This document shows positions 57,781 through 64,000 of a stretch of DNA of 64,000 nucleotides, one piece after another. Source of the stretch: Aquimarina mytili (GTDB lineage: Bacteria; Bacteroidota; Bacteroidia; Flavobacteriales; Flavobacteriaceae); contig NZ_JAERQJ010000001.1 of assembly GCF_016735115.1 (NCBI RefSeq), positions 841,501-905,500 on the forward strand, read 5' to 3'. How positions within the stretch are numbered: position 1 is the first letter of the stretch; each line of letters starts with the position of its first letter. Both the position numbers and the translations under genes were made by a program. The notes under the pieces are model-generated. The model ran no database searches. It had not been told where the DNA came from and saw only the letters and a list, made by a program, of their open reading frames with translations.

Positions 57781-57860
57781 CTATTTTGAAAAGCTTTGAA
57801 AGCGTATTCAAAATAGTAGGTTGAACTAATCCCGCTGTAGAGCGGGATCTATTAGGGTAT
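57781..57860. other. Inverted-repeat cluster downstream of the regulator gene
   Basis: CTATTTTGAA (57781-57790) pairs with TTCAAAATAG (57807-57816). A second, GC-rich hairpin ATCCCGCT/AGCGGGAT around GTAG lies at 57829-57848. Neither has a clear U-run. They sit 8-75 nt after the regulator stop and probably close that transcript or form a protective 3' structure. Confidence 0.5.
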
Positions 57861-57905: not shown

Positions 57906-57913
57906 TATATTTG
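57906..57913 (+). promoter_or_regulatory. -7 promoter box of the ilv operon
   Basis: TATATTTG matches TAnnTTTG and lies 8 nt before the first leader-peptide ATG, so that message would be almost leaderless. No -33 element with the expected spacing was found, which lowers confidence. Confidence 0.5.
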
Positions 57914-57921
57914 AATTGTAT

Positions 57922-57984
57922 ATGAAAAGCAACAACCCATATAATATAAACGTCATTAGTATTAAAGTGATTATTTCGCCTTGA
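57922..57984 (+). CDS. ilv leader peptide 1 (Ile/Val-rich)
   Basis: A 20-residue ORF, MKSNNPYNINVISIKVIISP, with 7 Ile/Val codons concentrated in residues 9-18. It is followed 30 nt later by an intrinsic terminator. The stop codon is 3 nt upstream of the antiterminator arm at 57987, the arrangement expected for ribosome-mediated attenuation: a ribosome stalled on Ile/Val codons leaves the arm free, while one reaching the stop covers it. It is too short for ordinary gene finders. Confidence 0.75.
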   Translation: MKSNNPYNINVISIKVIISP

Positions 57985-57986
57985 TG

Positions 57987-58021
57987 GGGATGTTTATACT
58001 ATGTTAGAGATATAAAATCCC
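57987..58021 (+). promoter_or_regulatory. Antiterminator hairpin of attenuator 1
   Basis: GGGATGTTTATA (57987-57998) pairs with TATAAAATCCC (58011-58021): 11 base pairs with one bulged G and a 12-nt loop. The right arm overlaps the left arm of terminator 1 (58014-58027), so the two structures are mutually exclusive. Confidence 0.75.
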
Positions 58022-58046
58022 TTTTTTCTAAAAAAGGGATTTTTTT
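58014..58046 (+). terminator. Attenuator terminator 1 of the ilv operon
   Basis: A 14-bp perfect stem, AAAATCCCTTTTTT (58014-58027) with AAAAAAGGGATTTT (58030-58043) around CT, followed by further T. It lies between leader peptides 1 and 2. Confidence 0.88.
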
Positions 58047-58063
58047 ATACACATAAATTTAGA

Positions 58064-58129
58064 ATGAATAAAGTAAAAAACAATATCGTTATCGTCATTA
58101 TTATTATCGTGATTATGTATTTGCGATAA
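58064..58129 (+). CDS. ilv leader peptide 2 (ten consecutive Ile/Val codons)
   Basis: A 21-residue ORF beginning MNKVKNN and containing the uninterrupted run IVIVIIIIVI (residues 8-17), then MYLR and stop. Ten adjacent branched-chain codons are the hallmark of an ilv attenuation leader. It lies downstream of terminator 1 and no separate promoter is evident, so it is translated only on transcripts that have passed the first attenuator. Its first bases, ATGAATAAAGTAAAAAAC, are repeated with one change at 58141. Confidence 0.9.
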   Translation: MNKVKNNIVIVIIIIVIMYLR

Positions 58130-58164
58130 GGGATATTGATATGACTAAAGTAAAAAACTCCCTT
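58128..58164 (+). promoter_or_regulatory. Candidate antiterminator of attenuator 2
   Basis: AAGGGA (58128-58133), overlapping the leader-2 stop codon, can pair with TCCCTT (58159-58164) in the left arm of terminator 2. It is only 6 bp with a 25-nt loop, weaker than antiterminator 1, but correctly placed: a ribosome at the stop codon would mask it. Confidence 0.5.
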
Positions 58165-58187
58165 CAAAAAGTGAAGGGAGTTTTTTT
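58152..58187 (+). terminator. Attenuator terminator 2 of the ilv operon
   Basis: A 15-bp perfect stem, AAAAAACTCCCTTCA (58152-58166) with TGAAGGGAGTTTTTT (58172-58186) around AAAAG, ending in T. It is downstream of the leader-2 stop by 22 nt. Confidence 0.9.
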
Positions 58188-58349
58188 GGTTTTAACATCA
58201 TGTTGAATAAAAAATTAACATATAGTGATTGTAAATATTTTGCACTTAAGTATCTGTTTATCAGTTGTTAATAAGGATATGGTGTTAAGTGGATATTGTA
58301 AGGGAATTGAATAATATACAATGGTTTAGCTACAACAAAATAATTTTAT

Positions 58350-58390
58350 ACTGTGGTTTATTTGTTAAGGTAAGAATACCGCAGTTTTTT
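58350..58390 (+). terminator. Third, weaker hairpin before ilvD
   Basis: ACTGTGGT (58350-58357) pairs with ACCGCAGT (58378-58385) including one wobble, around a 20-nt loop, followed by TTTTT. It is 41 nt before the ilvD ATG. It could be a third terminator or a 5' structure of the ilvD message. Between 58188 and 58349 no Ile/Val-rich ORF was seen. Confidence 0.4.
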
Positions 58391-58431
58391 AGTTAAAAAA
58401 TTAAATAATCCTCAAAAAACTAAATATTAGA

Positions 58432-60108
58432 ATGAGTATCAATAAATATAGTAAACAAGTCACACAAGATGACACACAACCTGCAGCACAAGCAATGTTG
58501 CATGCTATTGGTTTGACCGATGAAGACTTTACCAAACCATTAGTTGGTATTGCAAGTACAGGGTATGAAGGTAACCCATGTAACATGCATCTTAATGATT
58601 TGGCCAAATTAGTAAAGAAAGGAACTAAAGAAGAAGATGTCGTTGGATTGATTTTTAATACTATTGGAGTAAGTGATGGAATTTCTATGGGGACTCCAGG
58701 TATGCGCTTTTCATTGCCGTCAAGAGATGTAATTGCTGATTCTATGGAAACTGTCGTACAAGCTATGTCTTATGATGGTATGGTTACTGTCGTGGGATGT
58801 GATAAAAACATGCCAGGAGCATTAATGGCTATGTTACGATTAAATCGTCCGGCAATATTAGTGTACGGAGGAACAATTGCATCTGGATGTCATGAAGGTA
58901 AAAAGCTCGATGTGGTTTCAGCTTTTGAAGCTTGGGGAGAGAAAGTTGCAGGAACTATTAGTCAAACAGAATATAAAAATGTTATAGAAAAAGCTTGCCC
59001 TGGAGCAGGAGCTTGTGGCGGAATGTACACAGCAAATACTATGGCGTCTGCCATAGAAGCCTTAGGGATGTCCTTACCATATAACTCCTCTAATCCAGCA
59101 ATAAGCAAAAACAAAGAAGAAGAAAGCATTGCTGCCGGTCGTGCTATGCGATTACTTTTAGAAAAAGATATTAAACCTAAGGATATAGTCACTAAAAAAG
59201 CTCTTGAGAATGCTATTCGATTAGTAACCGTTCTAGGGGGGTCTACCAATGCGGTATTACACTTTTTGGCAATTGCTCGTGCAGCAGATGTAGAATTTAC
59301 GCTAGCAGATTTTCAAAGAATTAGTGATGAAACTCCTTTTCTGGCTGATTTAAAACCCAGTGGAAAATACCTTATGGAAGATGTACATGATGTTGGAGGA
59401 ATCCCGGCGGTATTAAAATATCTTCTTAAGAAAGGATTGTTACATGGAGATTGCTTAACCGTAACCGGAAAGACTTTAGCCGAAAATCTACTAGAAGTTC
59501 CTGATCTTACCGAGGGGCAAGATGTAATAAAGCCTCTAGAGAACCCAATCAAACAAACCGGACATCTTAGAATTATGTTTGGAAATCTTGCAGAAGATGG
59601 ATGTGTGGCAAAAATAACTGGAAAAGAAGGACTGCGTTTTGAAGGAAAAGCAAAGGTTTTTAATGGAGAGTATGCTGCAAATGACGGTATTCGCGACGGT
59701 AAAGTCGAAAAAGGAGATGTAGTCGTCATTCGATACGAAGGACCAAAAGGAGGACCTGGTATGCCAGAAATGCTAAAACCTACAGCGGCCATTATGGGAG
59801 CTGGTCTTGGTAAAGATGTAGCACTCATAACAGATGGAAGATTTTCTGGTGGAACTCATGGTTTTGTTGTAGGACATATTACTCCTGAAGCACAAGAAGG
59901 CGGCTTGATTGGTTTAGTGAAAGATGGAGATATTATTACAATTGACGCCGAAACAAATTCTATTGCAGTAGCTATTGATGATGCAGAGATTGAAAAAAGA
60001 AAAGCAATTTGGGAGCAGCCAGAACTAAAGTTTAAAAGAGGGGTATTGTATAAATATGCAAGAACGGTATCATCAGCTTCAGAAGGTTGTGTTACTGATG
60101 AATTCTAA
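58432..60108 (+). CDS. ilvD: Dihydroxy-acid dehydratase
   Basis: Fe-S dehydratase producing the 2-keto acids of isoleucine and valine, 558 residues. Cluster cysteines are in VGCDKNMPG and [12 protein letters not shown], with a third in the N-terminal [24 protein letters not shown], the substrate motif [21 protein letters not shown] and the [11 protein letters not shown] region are intact. It is the first structural gene after the tandem attenuator and is followed by ilvB at 115 nt. Confidence 0.97.
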
Positions 60109-60223: not shown

Positions 60224-61957
60224 ATGGAAACACAAACGCAAACAATTGAAAAGAAAACAAAAGTGGAAACAAAGCGTATGACTGGTGCAGAAGCAGTAAT
60301 CAGGTGTCTTTTGGCAGAAGGAGTAGATTTGATTTATGGGTATCCAGGTGGAGCCATTATGCCAGTATATGATGAATTGTATAAGTTTCAGGATCAATTA
60401 CATCATGTATTAACTCGGCACGAACAAGGTGCTACTCATGCGGCACAAGGATATGCAAGAACCAGTGGAAAAGTAGGTGTGGCTATTGCTACTTCGGGAC
60501 CAGGAGCGACTAATTTTGTAACAGGGATTGCAGATGCGCAGATTGATTCTACGCCTATGGTATGTATTACCGGTCAGGTAGGGTCACATTTATTGGGATC
60601 TGATGCATTTCAGGAAACCGATATTATCGGGATCTCTACTCCAATTACGAAGTGGAACCACCAGGTGACAAAAGCAGAAGATATTCCAACTGTTTTGGCA
60701 AAAGCTTTTTATATAGCCAAATCTGGACGTCCAGGCCCTGTATTAGTTGATATCACTAAAGATGCCCAGTTTGGAGAGTTGGATTTTGCTTACGAAAAAT
60801 GTAAAGGAGTGCGCAGCTATAAGCCCGTTCCTAAAACAGATCCAAAGAGTATAGAAAAAGCTGCTAAATTGATTAATGAGGCTAAAAAACCAATGATCGT
60901 TTTTGGCCAGGGTGTTATTTTAGGTGAGGCCGAAGAGGAATTAAAAAACTTTATAGAAAAATCTGGAATACCATCAGCATGGACAATTTTAGGGTTATCC
61001 GCATTGCCAACCGCACATCCTCTTAATGTAGGAATGGTTGGGATGCATGGTAATTATGGTCCAAATAAATTAACTAATGAATGTGATCTTCTATTGGCGA
61101 TAGGAATGCGTTTTGATGATCGTGTAACCGGTAATTTAAATACCTATGCCAAGCAAGCTAAAATCATTCATTTTGAAATTGACCCGGCAGAGGTAAATAA
61201 AAATGTAAAAGCAGATGTTGCTGTAATGGGAGATGTAAAAAACACACTCTCGCAGATCTTGCCTTTGGTTCAATCTAATTCTCATGATGCTTGGTTACAA
61301 GAATTCAAAGATTATGATGTAATAGAATATGATAAAGTAATCAAAGAAGAATTGTTTCCTTCCAAAGATGGGCTTTCTATGGGCGAGGTACTTAGAGGAA
61401 TTAATGAAGAGACCAAGGGAGATGCTGTTATAGTATCAGACGTAGGGCAGCATCAGATGATTGCCTGTCGTTATGCAGAGTTTACAACCTCTAAGAGTAA
61501 TGTAACATCTGGAGGTTTAGGAACTATGGGGTTTGCCTTACCAGCAGCGATTGGTGCCAAAATGGGAGCTCCAGAGAGAGAAGTAGTAGCGATTATTGGC
61601 GATGGTGGTTATCAGATGACCATCCAAGAATTAGGTACTATTTTTCAGACTAGAGTACCGGTAAAGATTGTAGTATTAAATAATGATTTTCTTGGGATGG
61701 TGCGACAATGGCAACAGCTATTTTTTGATAAGCGATATGCATCTACAGAAATGGTGAACCCAGATTTTGTGACCATTGCAAAAGGATATCATATCGAGGC
61801 TAAAAGAGTTACCAAACGTGAGGATTTGCAAGATGCTATTGCTGAGATGATTGCTAGTAAAGAGCCTTACTTTTTAGAAGTATGTGTAGAAAAAGAAAAT
61901 AATGTATTTCCTATGATCCCAACAGGAGCATCGGTTTCTGATATAAGATTAGAATAG
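60224..61957 (+). CDS. ilvB: Acetolactate synthase large subunit
   Basis: ThDP enzyme forming acetolactate or acetohydroxybutyrate, 577 residues. The N-terminal METQTQTIEKKTKVETKRM extension precedes the fold starting at TGAEAVIRCLLAEGVDLIYGYPGGAIMPVYDEL. The catalytic Glu is in TRHEQGATHAAQGYAR. The ThDP motif is IIGDGGYQMTIQELGTI...NNDFLGMVRQWQ. It is 2 nt upstream of the small subunit gene. The gap to ilvD holds no clear terminator, so the operon is continuous. Confidence 0.96.
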   Translation: METQTQTIEKKTKVETKRMTGAEAVIRCLLAEGVDLIYGYPGGAIMPVYDELYKFQDQLHHVLTRHEQGATHAAQGYARTSGKVGVAIATSGPGATNFVTGIADAQIDSTPMVCITGQVGSHLLGSDAFQETDIIGISTPITKWNHQVTKAEDIPTVLAKAFYIAKSGRPGPVLVDITKDAQFGELDFAYEKCKGVRSYKPVPKTDPKSIEKAAKLINEAKKPMIVFGQGVILGEAEEELKNFIEKSGIPSAWTILGLSALPTAHPLNVGMVGMHGNYGPNKLTNECDLLLAIGMRFDDRVTGNLNTYAKQAKIIHFEIDPAEVNKNVKADVAVMGDVKNTLSQILPLVQSNSHDAWLQEFKDYDVIEYDKVIKEELFPSKDGLSMGEVLRGINEETKGDAVIVSDVGQHQMIACRYAEFTTSKSNVTSGGLGTMGFALPAAIGAKMGAPEREVVAIIGDGGYQMTIQELGTIFQTRVPVKIVVLNNDFLGMVRQWQQLFFDKRYASTEMVNPDFVTIAKGYHIEAKRVTKREDLQDAIAEMIASKEPYFLEVCVEKENNVFPMIPTGASVSDIRLE

Positions 61958-61959
61958 TT

Positions 61960-62493
61960 ATGGAAAAAGAAAATTTTACAATATCGGTATATACCGAAAA
62001 TAATATAGGATTGCTTAATAGAATATCAGCGATCTTTTTAAAGCGTCATATTAATTTGGATAGTATGACTGCATCACAATCAGAAATCAAAGATGTGTTT
62101 CGATTTACTATTGCAGTAAAAGTGACCGAGGAACAGGTTAAAAAGATTGTTGGGCAAATAGAGAAGCAAATCGAGGTGATCAAAGCATTTTATCATAAAG
62201 AAGAAGATATTATTTATCAGGAAACGGCTTTGTTTAAAGTAGCTTCTAAATTGTTATTTGAAGAACGACAAATCCAAAATGTAATTAAAAATAGTAATGC
62301 GAATATAGTTACAGTAACCCCAGAATTTTTTGTAATTGAAAAGACGGGTAGGCGTAGAGAAGTACAGGCACTATATCATAAATTAGAACCGTATGGGTTA
62401 ATGCAGTTTGTGCGTTCGGGTCGGATTGCTGTAACTAAGGAGAAAATGGATATTTCAAAAATATTAGAAAGTTTTACAGAAGAAGCCGTGTAA
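61960..62493 (+). CDS. ilvN: Acetolactate synthase small (regulatory) subunit
   Basis: Regulatory subunit that confers valine sensitivity and activates IlvB. It has 177 residues. An N-terminal ACT domain (about 6-80: FTISVYTENNIGLLNRISAIFLKRHINLDSMTASQSEIKDVFRFTIAV) precedes the C-terminal ALS_ss domain (about 95-165: LFKVASKLLFEERQIQNVIKNSNANIVTVTPEFFVIEKTGRRREVQALYHKL). It starts 2 nt after ilvB stops, which suggests translational coupling. It is followed by a dispersed-repeat-like stem-loop before ilvC. Confidence 0.95.
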   Translation: MEKENFTISVYTENNIGLLNRISAIFLKRHINLDSMTASQSEIKDVFRFTIAVKVTEEQVKKIVGQIEKQIEVIKAFYHKEEDIIYQETALFKVASKLLFEERQIQNVIKNSNANIVTVTPEFFVIEKTGRRREVQALYHKLEPYGLMQFVRSGRIAVTKEKMDISKILESFTEEAV

Positions 62494-62630
62494 GGGATAG
62501 CAGCGACATCCTTTTATCTCTGATCCCAGAGGTTTTCGAAGGGATTTGAGATAAAAGATATAGCGGATAGCCCGACCCTAAGATGGCACTGAGTTTATCG
62601 AAGTGTCGGCTAAGGGATACACCCAAAAAG
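62494..62630. repeat. Long intergenic stem-loop between ilvN and ilvC
   Basis: A 16-nt arm TTTTATCTCTGATCCC (62512-62527) pairs at 14 of 16 positions with GGGATTTGAGATAAAA (62541-62556). It is flanked by GGGATAGCAGCGACATCC on the left and ATAGCGGATAGCCCGACCC on the right. From memory, this frame resembles dispersed intergenic repeats of Flavobacteriaceae (conserved flanks, variable hairpin); I cannot verify that here. The remainder to 62701 shows no gene. Confidence 0.6.
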
Positions 62631-62701: not shown

Positions 62702-64000
62702 ATGGCAAATTATTTTAATACGCTATCATTAAGAGATCAATTAACACAATTAGGAAAATGTAGATTTATGGATGCCGATGAATTCTCGGCTGGAGTAGAT
62801 GTACTTAAAGGAAAAAAAATTGTTATTGTAGGATGTGGTGCTCAAGGACTTAATCAAGGTCTAAACATGAGAGATTCTGGATTGGATATCTCTTATGCGC
62901 TTAGAGAAGCAGCAATTAATGAAAAAAGACAATCTTATGTAAATGCTACCGATAATGGTTTTAATGTTGGAACTTATGAAGAATTGATTCCAACTGCTGA
63001 TGTGGTAATTAATCTTACACCAGATAAACAACATACTCAAGTAGTAACCGCAGTGATGCCGCTCATGAAAAAAGGAGCTACCCTATCGTATTCTCATGGT
63101 TTTAATATTGTTGAAGAAGGTATGCAGGTTAGAGAAGATCTAACTGTGATTATGGTGGCGCCAAAATGCCCTGGATCTGAAGTAAGAGAAGAGTATAAAA
63201 GAGGGTTTGGAGTTCCAACTCTTATTGCAGTGCATCCAGAGAATGATCCTCAAGGGCACGGTTTAGATCAGGCAAAAGCTTATGCAGTTGCAACTGGAGG
63301 AGACAGGGCTGGAGTATTAGAATCTTCATTTGTAGCCGAGGTTAAATCAGATTTGATGGGAGAGCAGACGATTCTTTGCGGTCTATTACAAACCGGATCT
63401 ATTTTGTGTTTTGACAAAATGTTGGAAAAAGGAATTGATGCAGGATATGCTTCTAAATTGATTCAGTATGGTTGGGAAACTATTACAGAGGGATTAAAAT
63501 ACGGAGGTATCACTAATATGATGGACCGTTTATCAAATCCGTCAAAAATAAAAGCGTTTGAATTATCTGAAGAATTGAAAGATATTATGAGACCTTTGTT
63601 TCAGAAGCATATGGATGATATTATTTCTGGACATTTCTCAAAAACCATGATGGAAGATTGGGCTAATGATGATAAAAATCTATTGTCATGGAGAGCTGCA
63701 ACTGGTGAAACTGCATTTGAAAAAACTGCAGCGGGAGCAGTTGAAATATCTGAACAAGAATTTTATGATCATGGAGTATTAATGGTGGCCTTGGTTAGAG
63801 CAGGGGTAGAACTGGCATTCGAAGCTATGACAGATTCTGGGATCATTGAAGAATCGGCTTATTATGAATCTCTGCATGAAACTCCACTTATTGCAAATAC
63901 TATTGCTCGTAAAAAGTTATTTGAAATGAATCGTGTAATTTCTGATACAGCAGAATATGGATGCTACCTATTTGATCATGCATGTAAGCCTTTATTAGGA
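62702..64000 (+). CDS. ilvC: Ketol-acid reductoisomerase, long class II type (partial)
   Basis: NADPH-dependent isomeroreductase of branched-chain synthesis; 433 codons are visible and the frame runs off the right edge. It begins [28 protein letters not shown]. The nucleotide-binding motif is [19 protein letters not shown] and the catalytic domain contains [18 protein letters not shown] and [21 protein letters not shown]. The visible length, with a second knotted domain repeat ([38 protein letters not shown]), fits the class II enzyme of about 490 residues rather than the short 330-residue class I. It is the fourth gene of ilvDBNC. Confidence 0.96.

Follow-up and report, generated by a model that had tools for sequence, protein, structure and literature searches.

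The window analysed here is a stretch of 64,000 nt on contig 1 of a 5.0-Mb Aquimarina (Flavobacteriaceae) genome. It contains a tandem leader followed in the 3′ direction by ilvD, ilvB, ilvN, ilvC and ilvA (Table 1), each of which passes the curated cut-off of one or more NCBIfam models. A preliminary description of this DNA had listed an ilvDBNC operon; all four genes are confirmed, and ilvA, which comes after ilvC, completes the list. The ilvD protein shares 97% identity with a protein of an uncultured Aquimarina sp., and its best named matches are also from Aquimarina. The products of the operon agree with the control codons of the leaders, Ile and Val. By eye, no leu genes were recognised among the ORFs in the 11 kb 3′ of ilvA. 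leuC sits on a different contig from the ilv operon, and the 4.4 kb around it showed no leader, although other genes of its operon may precede leuC. Other elements are also present in the neighbourhood: a Flavo-1 RNA (Rfam RF01705, 56.4 bits) occupies positions 62480-62581 at the ilvN-ilvC junction, and a perfect inverted repeat (ATCCCGCT..AGCGGGAT, 57829-57848), without a T run on the + strand, lies between a response regulator gene and the candidate promoter P1.

The leader comprises two successive units with the same plan. The two short ORFs rich in Ile and Val codons that had been read from the sequence, one with seven such codons in 20 and the other with ten in a row, are present where they had been placed, and each precedes a strong terminator hairpin. 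These terminators had been measured at 14 to 15 bp; the second does have 15 bp, while the first has 13. The first antiterminator also exists, with revised bounds, and starts one nt past the stop codon of leader 1 instead of 3 nt; the weaker 6-bp antiterminator of unit 2 was found as described. In addition to these elements, each leader contains a 1:2 hairpin. In unit 1, its outer helix includes 57946-57954/57989-57997, and an inner hairpin (57960-57986) spans the last control codons.

Table 1. Features of the tandem leader and the ilv operon, numbered from the first letter of the window
Feature	Position	Strand	Basis
P1 -7 promoter box TATATTTG (TAnnTTTG)	57906..57913	+	Sequence; putative start site
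Leader peptide 1, MKSNNPYNINVISIKVIISP; control codons Ile and Val (7/20)	57922..57984	+	ORF; codon conservation
1:2 hairpin, unit 1	57939..58004	+	-18.4 kcal/mol; cognate-arm test; two-sided changes
Antiterminator 1 (2:3)	57986..58022; 57986-58000 pairs with 58008-58022	+	-9.3 kcal/mol
Intrinsic terminator 1 (3:4) and U tract	58014..58046; hairpin 58014-58043, 13 bp	+	-12.6 kcal/mol; arms co-vary
Leader peptide 2, MNKVKNNIVIVIIIIVIMYLR; 11/21 Ile/Val, ten consecutive	58064..58129	+	ORF; codon conservation
1:2 hairpin, unit 2	58086..58146	+	-17.3 kcal/mol; helix 86.1% paired in alignment; cognate-arm test weak
Antiterminator 2	58128..58164; 6-bp helix 58128-58133/58159-58164	+	-5.7 kcal/mol; starts inside stop codon
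Intrinsic terminator 2 (3:4) and U tract	58152..58187; hairpin 58152-58186, 15 bp	+	-19.4 kcal/mol; arms co-vary
Conserved stretch between terminator 2 and ilvD: possible operator and candidate promoter P2, TAATTTTA (58341-58348)	58200..58430	+	Putative function
ilvD, dihydroxy-acid dehydratase	58432..60108	+	TIGR00110 above cut-off
ilvB, acetolactate synthase large subunit	60224..61957	+	TIGR00118 above cut-off
ilvN, acetolactate synthase small subunit	61960..62493	+	TIGR00119 above cut-off
ilvC, ketol-acid reductoisomerase	62702..64000, continues beyond window	+	NCBIfam profile match
ilvA, following ilvC	L240:780-2045 (outside window)		NCBIfam profile match

The folding energy of the tandem leader is 6.2 sd below that of dinucleotide shuffles. 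A unit detector, which demands an ORF with at least five Ile/Val codons close to a terminator, returned exactly these two units over both strands of the whole window. In the controls, none of 477 dinucleotide-shuffled upstream regions contained a unit, and 4 of 159 reverse complements contained one each. Because the detector requires at least five Ile/Val codons, the richness of the leaders in these codons is in part built into the search, unlike their placement and retention. Ile/Val content by itself is striking for ORF2 only: of 331 ORFs with an ATG start and 15-25 codons, nine have at least seven Ile/Val codons and two have at least nine. Leader families in Rfam stayed below their gathering thresholds (Thr_leader RF00506, 37.5 versus 55 bits; His_leader RF00514, 29.9 versus 49; Phe_leader RF01859, 26.5 versus 55), and the Flavo-1 RNA is the sole match at gathering level in the window.

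Codons and structures were compared across 42 aligned tandem Aquimarina genomes, that is, 84 units with leaders 18-28 codons long. Both ORFs are enriched in codons for the products of the operon, with Ile at 31.5% and Val at 11.7% of codons in unit 1, and 36.6% and 15.8% in unit 2. The branched-chain amino acid sensing originally proposed would concern Ile and Val, Leu being hardly present at 1.7% and 2.3% of codons. Two to four other codons follow the final Ile/Val codon in 84/84 leaders. At single-base differences, the Ile/Val class was kept in 2052 of 3255 cases in unit 1 (63%) and 2836 of 4058 in unit 2 (70%), against 0.38 expected without selection, these being pairwise counts on nucleotide-aligned codons in which the pairs are not independent. 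Conservation of the Ile/Val codons in an alignment of relatives, a check that the preliminary description had suggested, is borne out. Third positions are the most changeable in the aligned codons. An earlier version of the test aligned codons from the C-terminus (0.50 and 0.69 kept); it mixed registers and was replaced by the nucleotide-aligned one.

The Val codons of the leaders have an unusual composition. GTC makes up 45 of 95 in unit 1 and 58 of 130 in unit 2, with GTT contributing 1 and 6, whereas among the 270 Val codons of ten window genes GTC stands at 5% and GTT at 35%. Among 45 tRNA matches, two of which were weak and not called as tRNA, the sole tRNA-Val has the anticodon UAC. Decoding of GTC may be slow, which would favour stalls, but the bases of leader Val codons are constrained by RNA helices as well.

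Compensatory change in the stems, likewise proposed there as a check, is clear for the terminators of both units and for the 1:2 hairpin of unit 1, but weak for that of unit 2. In an alignment-free cognate-arm test on 32 and 29 non-redundant members of the 42, which asks whether the helix arms of a genome pair better with one another than with those from different genomes, the 3:4 terminators reached z values of -7.8 (unit 1) and -8.5 (unit 2), and the 1:2 helix of unit 1 reached -6.8 (0/5000 permutations). Values were weak for the 1:2 helix of unit 2 (-1.6, 302/5000) and for the 2:3 antiterminators (-2.7 and -1.8), and control region pairs lay between -0.8 and 0.8. Pair counting, in which the scored structures were read from members of the alignment and so carry a bias in their favour, gave 86.0% of cells paired with 19 two-sided pair changes in unit 1 (shuffled 80.0% and 11.1), and 88.2% with 10 in unit 2 (shuffled 83.7% and 5.6); slid structures were only 43-61% paired.

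Pairing in the antiterminator helix amounts to 81% in unit 1 and 88% in unit 2, and neither alignment gives a clear excess of covariation. All 84 units form at least five antiterminator pairs, which start between the first base of the stop codon and 2 nt past its end. Mean antiterminator energies are -10.1 and -10.4, compared with -4.8 and -4.6 when the spacer is shuffled, and shuffled spacers reached the native energy in 49/840 (unit 1) and 47/840 (unit 2) cases.

We also folded the nascent RNA up to the end of the terminator 5′ arm while masking 30 nt around the A site, an assumed ribosome footprint, at every codon. When the A site was set on the stop codon, folding gave the antiterminator in 0/42 genomes for unit 1 and 1/42 for unit 2. 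At the third codon before the stop, which is Ile or Val in 45% and 31% of leaders, it was predicted in 26% and 40%; at the fourth codon, in 81% and 69%; and from the sixth to the fourteenth, in 88-100%. Most Ile/Val codons fall within the range that frees the antiterminator, and none within the last two codons. By the same modelling, some are placed where a stall would seldom free it, including the eighteenth codon before the stop in unit 2, which is Ile or Val in 53% of leaders and frees the antiterminator in 39%. With no ribosome, the antiterminator formed in 20 and 16 and the 1:2 hairpin in 22 and 26 of the 42 genomes (units 1 and 2), and this mixed outcome gives no prediction for a leader that is not being translated. 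Both units thus combine an intrinsic terminator before the first gene with an antiterminator that a ribosome at the stop codon would occlude, and both have a 1:2 hairpin, strong in unit 1 and weak in unit 2.

The tandem arrangement is typical of the genus. Of 66 Aquimarina genomes searched, 64 had an ilvD match; we collected 900 nt 5′ of ilvD from 63 of these, the genome of the window included, and omitted one whose match lay at a contig edge. In the wider family 149 genomes were searched, the window's own among them, and the corresponding region was taken from 96 of 117 other family genomes that had a match. Under strict detection, 40 of the genus genomes had two units, 9 had one and 14 had none; among the family genomes these counts were 6, 32 and 58. 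The final genus tally is 44 two-unit, 6 one-unit and 13 no-unit genomes, where the 44 comprise 43 by relaxed thresholds, minus L026, plus L008 and L077 by inspection. In L008 and L077 an antiterminator-like hairpin had been taken for the terminator, so that the detector missed the second unit. The second units called in L026 and in L170 (Aquimarina pacifica) were spurious and were dropped. Since the genomes are related, the 44 do not represent 44 independent events. Eleven of the 13 no-unit members are among the most divergent, with ilvD 79-86% identical. Loss of the Ile/Val runs while the stems persist, the pattern that had been named as speaking against attenuation, was absent from the 10 inspected of the 19 genus members without a pair; in these 10, leader and CCCTT-type terminator are present together or missing together.

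Tandem leaders also recur in the family, so the duplication first singled out as notable for one Bacteroidota genome is real but is not a peculiarity of that genome. Of 80 named loci, 19 are tandem (one spurious unit dropped), 14 of them in Aquimarina, and those outside the genus include Bizionia arctica and Tenacibaculum agarivorans. Among the named Aquimarina species, A. longa and A. algiphila are of the two-unit kind, whereas A. algicola and A. pacifica have a single unit. Units 1 and 2 of the same Aquimarina genome have a mean identity of 81% over 75 nt (score 30.5 versus 10.5 shuffled, sd 2.8), which makes them probable copies of one another and suggests that the Aquimarina pair probably arose by duplication of one unit. 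Other genera, as judged from their sequences, pair dissimilar units instead: in seven tandem genomes the first has a CCTTCC-like stem and the second a CTGTATC-like one, and the two leaders score 14.3 versus 9.2 shuffled (sd 3.2). CCTTCC-like single units also occur in 10 of 26 further loci (L250-L259, one other family). The terminator stems of the second type (L049, L050, L053, L107, L108, L114, L116, L132 and others) are near-invariant across genera (CCTGTATC..GATACAGG), and this conservation exceeds a terminator's needs.

By every sequence feature tested, each unit is a classical leader-peptide attenuator, and we consider it very probable that transcription into ilvDBNCA is governed by two such ribosome-mediated attenuators arranged in series on a single transcript. 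Codon retention, covariation, geometry and order in the comparative data favour the series of two attenuators first proposed from the single sequence. In the mechanism that we infer, RNA polymerase would start at P1, a few nt 5′ of the first leader ORF. When charged tRNA-Ile and tRNA-Val are plentiful, the ribosome would reach the stop codon and cover the 5′ arm of the antiterminator, whereupon terminator 1 would form and transcription would halt. When Ile or Val is short, the ribosome would stall some 4-16 codons before the stop, breaking the 1:2 hairpin and leaving the antiterminator free, and polymerase would continue to face the same decision at leader 2. Full-length mRNA from P1 would then appear with probability r1 x r2, so that the pair would leak less and respond more steeply than one unit alone. 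Since Ile and Val codons occur together in each leader, the two units should sense the same inputs. The AND-type gate of the preliminary description is accordingly better described as a multiplicative double lock than as a two-input AND, with the same-signal series defined by anatomy only, that is, by shared Ile/Val codons and unit order. In a toy calculation with assumed read-through limits of 5% and 90%, control rises from 18-fold with one unit to 313-fold with two, and the 10-90% span narrows from 80-fold to 44-fold. The same genome has a His leader (MRKIAIHHHHSYIFAQAW, HHHH) with an intrinsic terminator before hisG (L245, minus strand) and a Trp leader (MNIILTNIWWWSSQNESVVR, WWW) with an intrinsic terminator before a trpE-type gene (L247, minus strand).

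Several other readings of the locus deserve consideration, beginning with where transcription starts. The Bacteroidota -7 consensus, TAnnTTTG as quoted in PMC7366714, occurs in the 45 nt before ATG1 in 26/42 tandem Aquimarina leaders, always 7-10 nt from the ATG (shuffled 87/1890), and off-consensus boxes such as TATATTTA were seen by eye before many of the remaining first leaders. A box at that distance would make the first Aquimarina leader nearly leaderless, with a predicted 5′ UTR of about 5 nt from P1; leaderless mRNAs make up 5.5% in F. psychrophilum (PMC9723704). Outside Aquimarina the strict box is rare before the first leader (1/7 tandem and 6/35 single genomes), and P1 is therefore less clear there. 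If each unit instead had its own promoter, the attenuators would work in parallel and not as a single series. The gap from the end of terminator 1 to ATG2, at 75-123 nt in 4/42 genomes, would leave space for a promoter in those few; it is, however, 12-30 nt in 26/42 (32-123 nt in the others) and 9-45 nt in the seven tandem genomes of other genera, and TAnnTTTG precedes ATG2 in 1/42. A promoter box before unit 1 and a second unit usually 12-30 nt past terminator 1 place the two in series, and parallel promoters appear extremely unlikely. The more serious competitor is transcription mainly from P2 under a conserved operator, with the attenuators acting on a minor upstream transcript only. A stretch located 3′ of terminator 2 and before ilvD is conserved across the genus, and partly so even in attenuator-free members such as L076 and L078, and across the family TAnnTT[TC]G lies within 150 nt of ilvD in 68/96 genomes (shuffled 15.6, sd 4.2). 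A TTGRATTTA-type element occurs within 200 nt of ilvD in 28 family genomes, of which 18 have a downstream box, all at 51-53 nt, and 10 do not; its Aquimarina counterpart lies exactly 50 nt before AATARTTTTA in 39/63. A tight pattern for the family form of the element matched 0/63 genus, 6/96 family and 1/795 shuffled sequences, and the spacing test was used instead; RNAalifold found no consensus structure in the roughly 250 nt before ilvD. We read the conserved stretch and box as a candidate second, regulated promoter that could bypass both attenuators. Such a promoter would limit what the double lock can achieve, and with it the very low basal level put forward in the preliminary description, which is so far only a prediction. 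Yet the Aquimarina P2 box is off consensus (TAnnTT[TC]G in 12/63, shuffled 12.2), whereas 26/42 tandem genomes match the consensus before leader 1. Selection on both attenuators argues that the upstream transcript matters, and we regard a dominant P2 as possible though rather unlikely.

Two further readings question the units themselves. The resemblance of units 1 and 2, together with the six genus members that have a single unit, would fit one working unit and one decaying duplicate, but both units keep codon class, terminator covariation and stop-codon geometry in 42 genomes, and we think this reading very improbable. It is less probable still that the ORFs are functional hydrophobic small proteins with incidental terminators, or that the terminators answer a protein or ligand in place of stalling. 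The peptides are indeed hydrophobic, many share a VIISP-like end, and a leader peptide acting in trans, peTrpL, is on record (PMC7298713); their residues towards the N-terminus are nonetheless more variable, and the Ile/Val codons are placed for the most part at positions from which a stalled ribosome would free the antiterminator, the last two codons being without any. Two attenuators in series remain the preferred reading.

The enterobacterial ilvGMEDA, ilvBN, trp and his operons have classical leader-peptide attenuators, as single units. The Aquimarina leader resembles these in its product-codon-rich ORFs, its 1:2, antiterminator and terminator helices and its stop-codon geometry, and differs in having two complete units per leader and scarcely any Leu codons. 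The ilvBNC operon of Corynebacterium provides a further classical example (PMC11857589). Closer to home, evidence for leader-peptide attenuation before amino-acid operons has been presented for F. psychrophilum (PMC9723704), although no tandem arrangement was seen there and the main text does not mention ilv; a cis-regulatory trp motif, the Bacteroid-trp RNA (RF01692), is known from the same phylum (PMC2864571).

Paired regulators in one transcript have been described elsewhere. Salmonella mgtCBR likewise has two leader ORFs in one leader mRNA, each acting on elongation, and its authors term it a singular example; there, however, mgtM answers ATP and mgtP proline, the effects are additive and the stems are not like intrinsic terminators (PMC3641672). 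At mefA/msrD, two leader peptides stall in response to the same inducer, erythromycin, the msrD attenuator uses an intrinsic terminator, and the authors describe the two as a double-lock against basal expression. Whereas the units described here are adjacent, one of those attenuators precedes mefA and the other msrD; they act on different gene sets and depend on drug-induced arrest, not tRNA charging (PMC10314930). Tandem riboswitches and T-boxes also place one-ligand units in series, with a steeper, more digital response predicted, but in them the RNA senses its ligand or tRNA directly, with no translating ribosome (PMC9481103, PMC7583486); how tandem T-boxes act is unknown, according to one review. 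Among the open-access matches listed, we found no description of tandem same-signal amino-acid leader attenuators. What is new here is that a single leader has two complete units for the same signal, one directly after the other.

We speculate, with about even confidence for and against, that doubling of same-signal leaders is a selected and recurrent design of the Flavobacteriaceae, reached in Aquimarina by duplication and in other genera by joining a CCTTCC-type unit to a CTGTATC-type one. Both forms would be pseudo-cooperative and ribosome-operated, their leak would be the product of two terminators, and they would constitute the first natural case described among leaders for amino-acid biosynthesis. 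Sharper responses have been attributed to tandem riboswitches (PMC9481103), and because one genus offers matched one-unit and two-unit relatives, it is possible to test here whether this also holds for translation-coupled attenuators.
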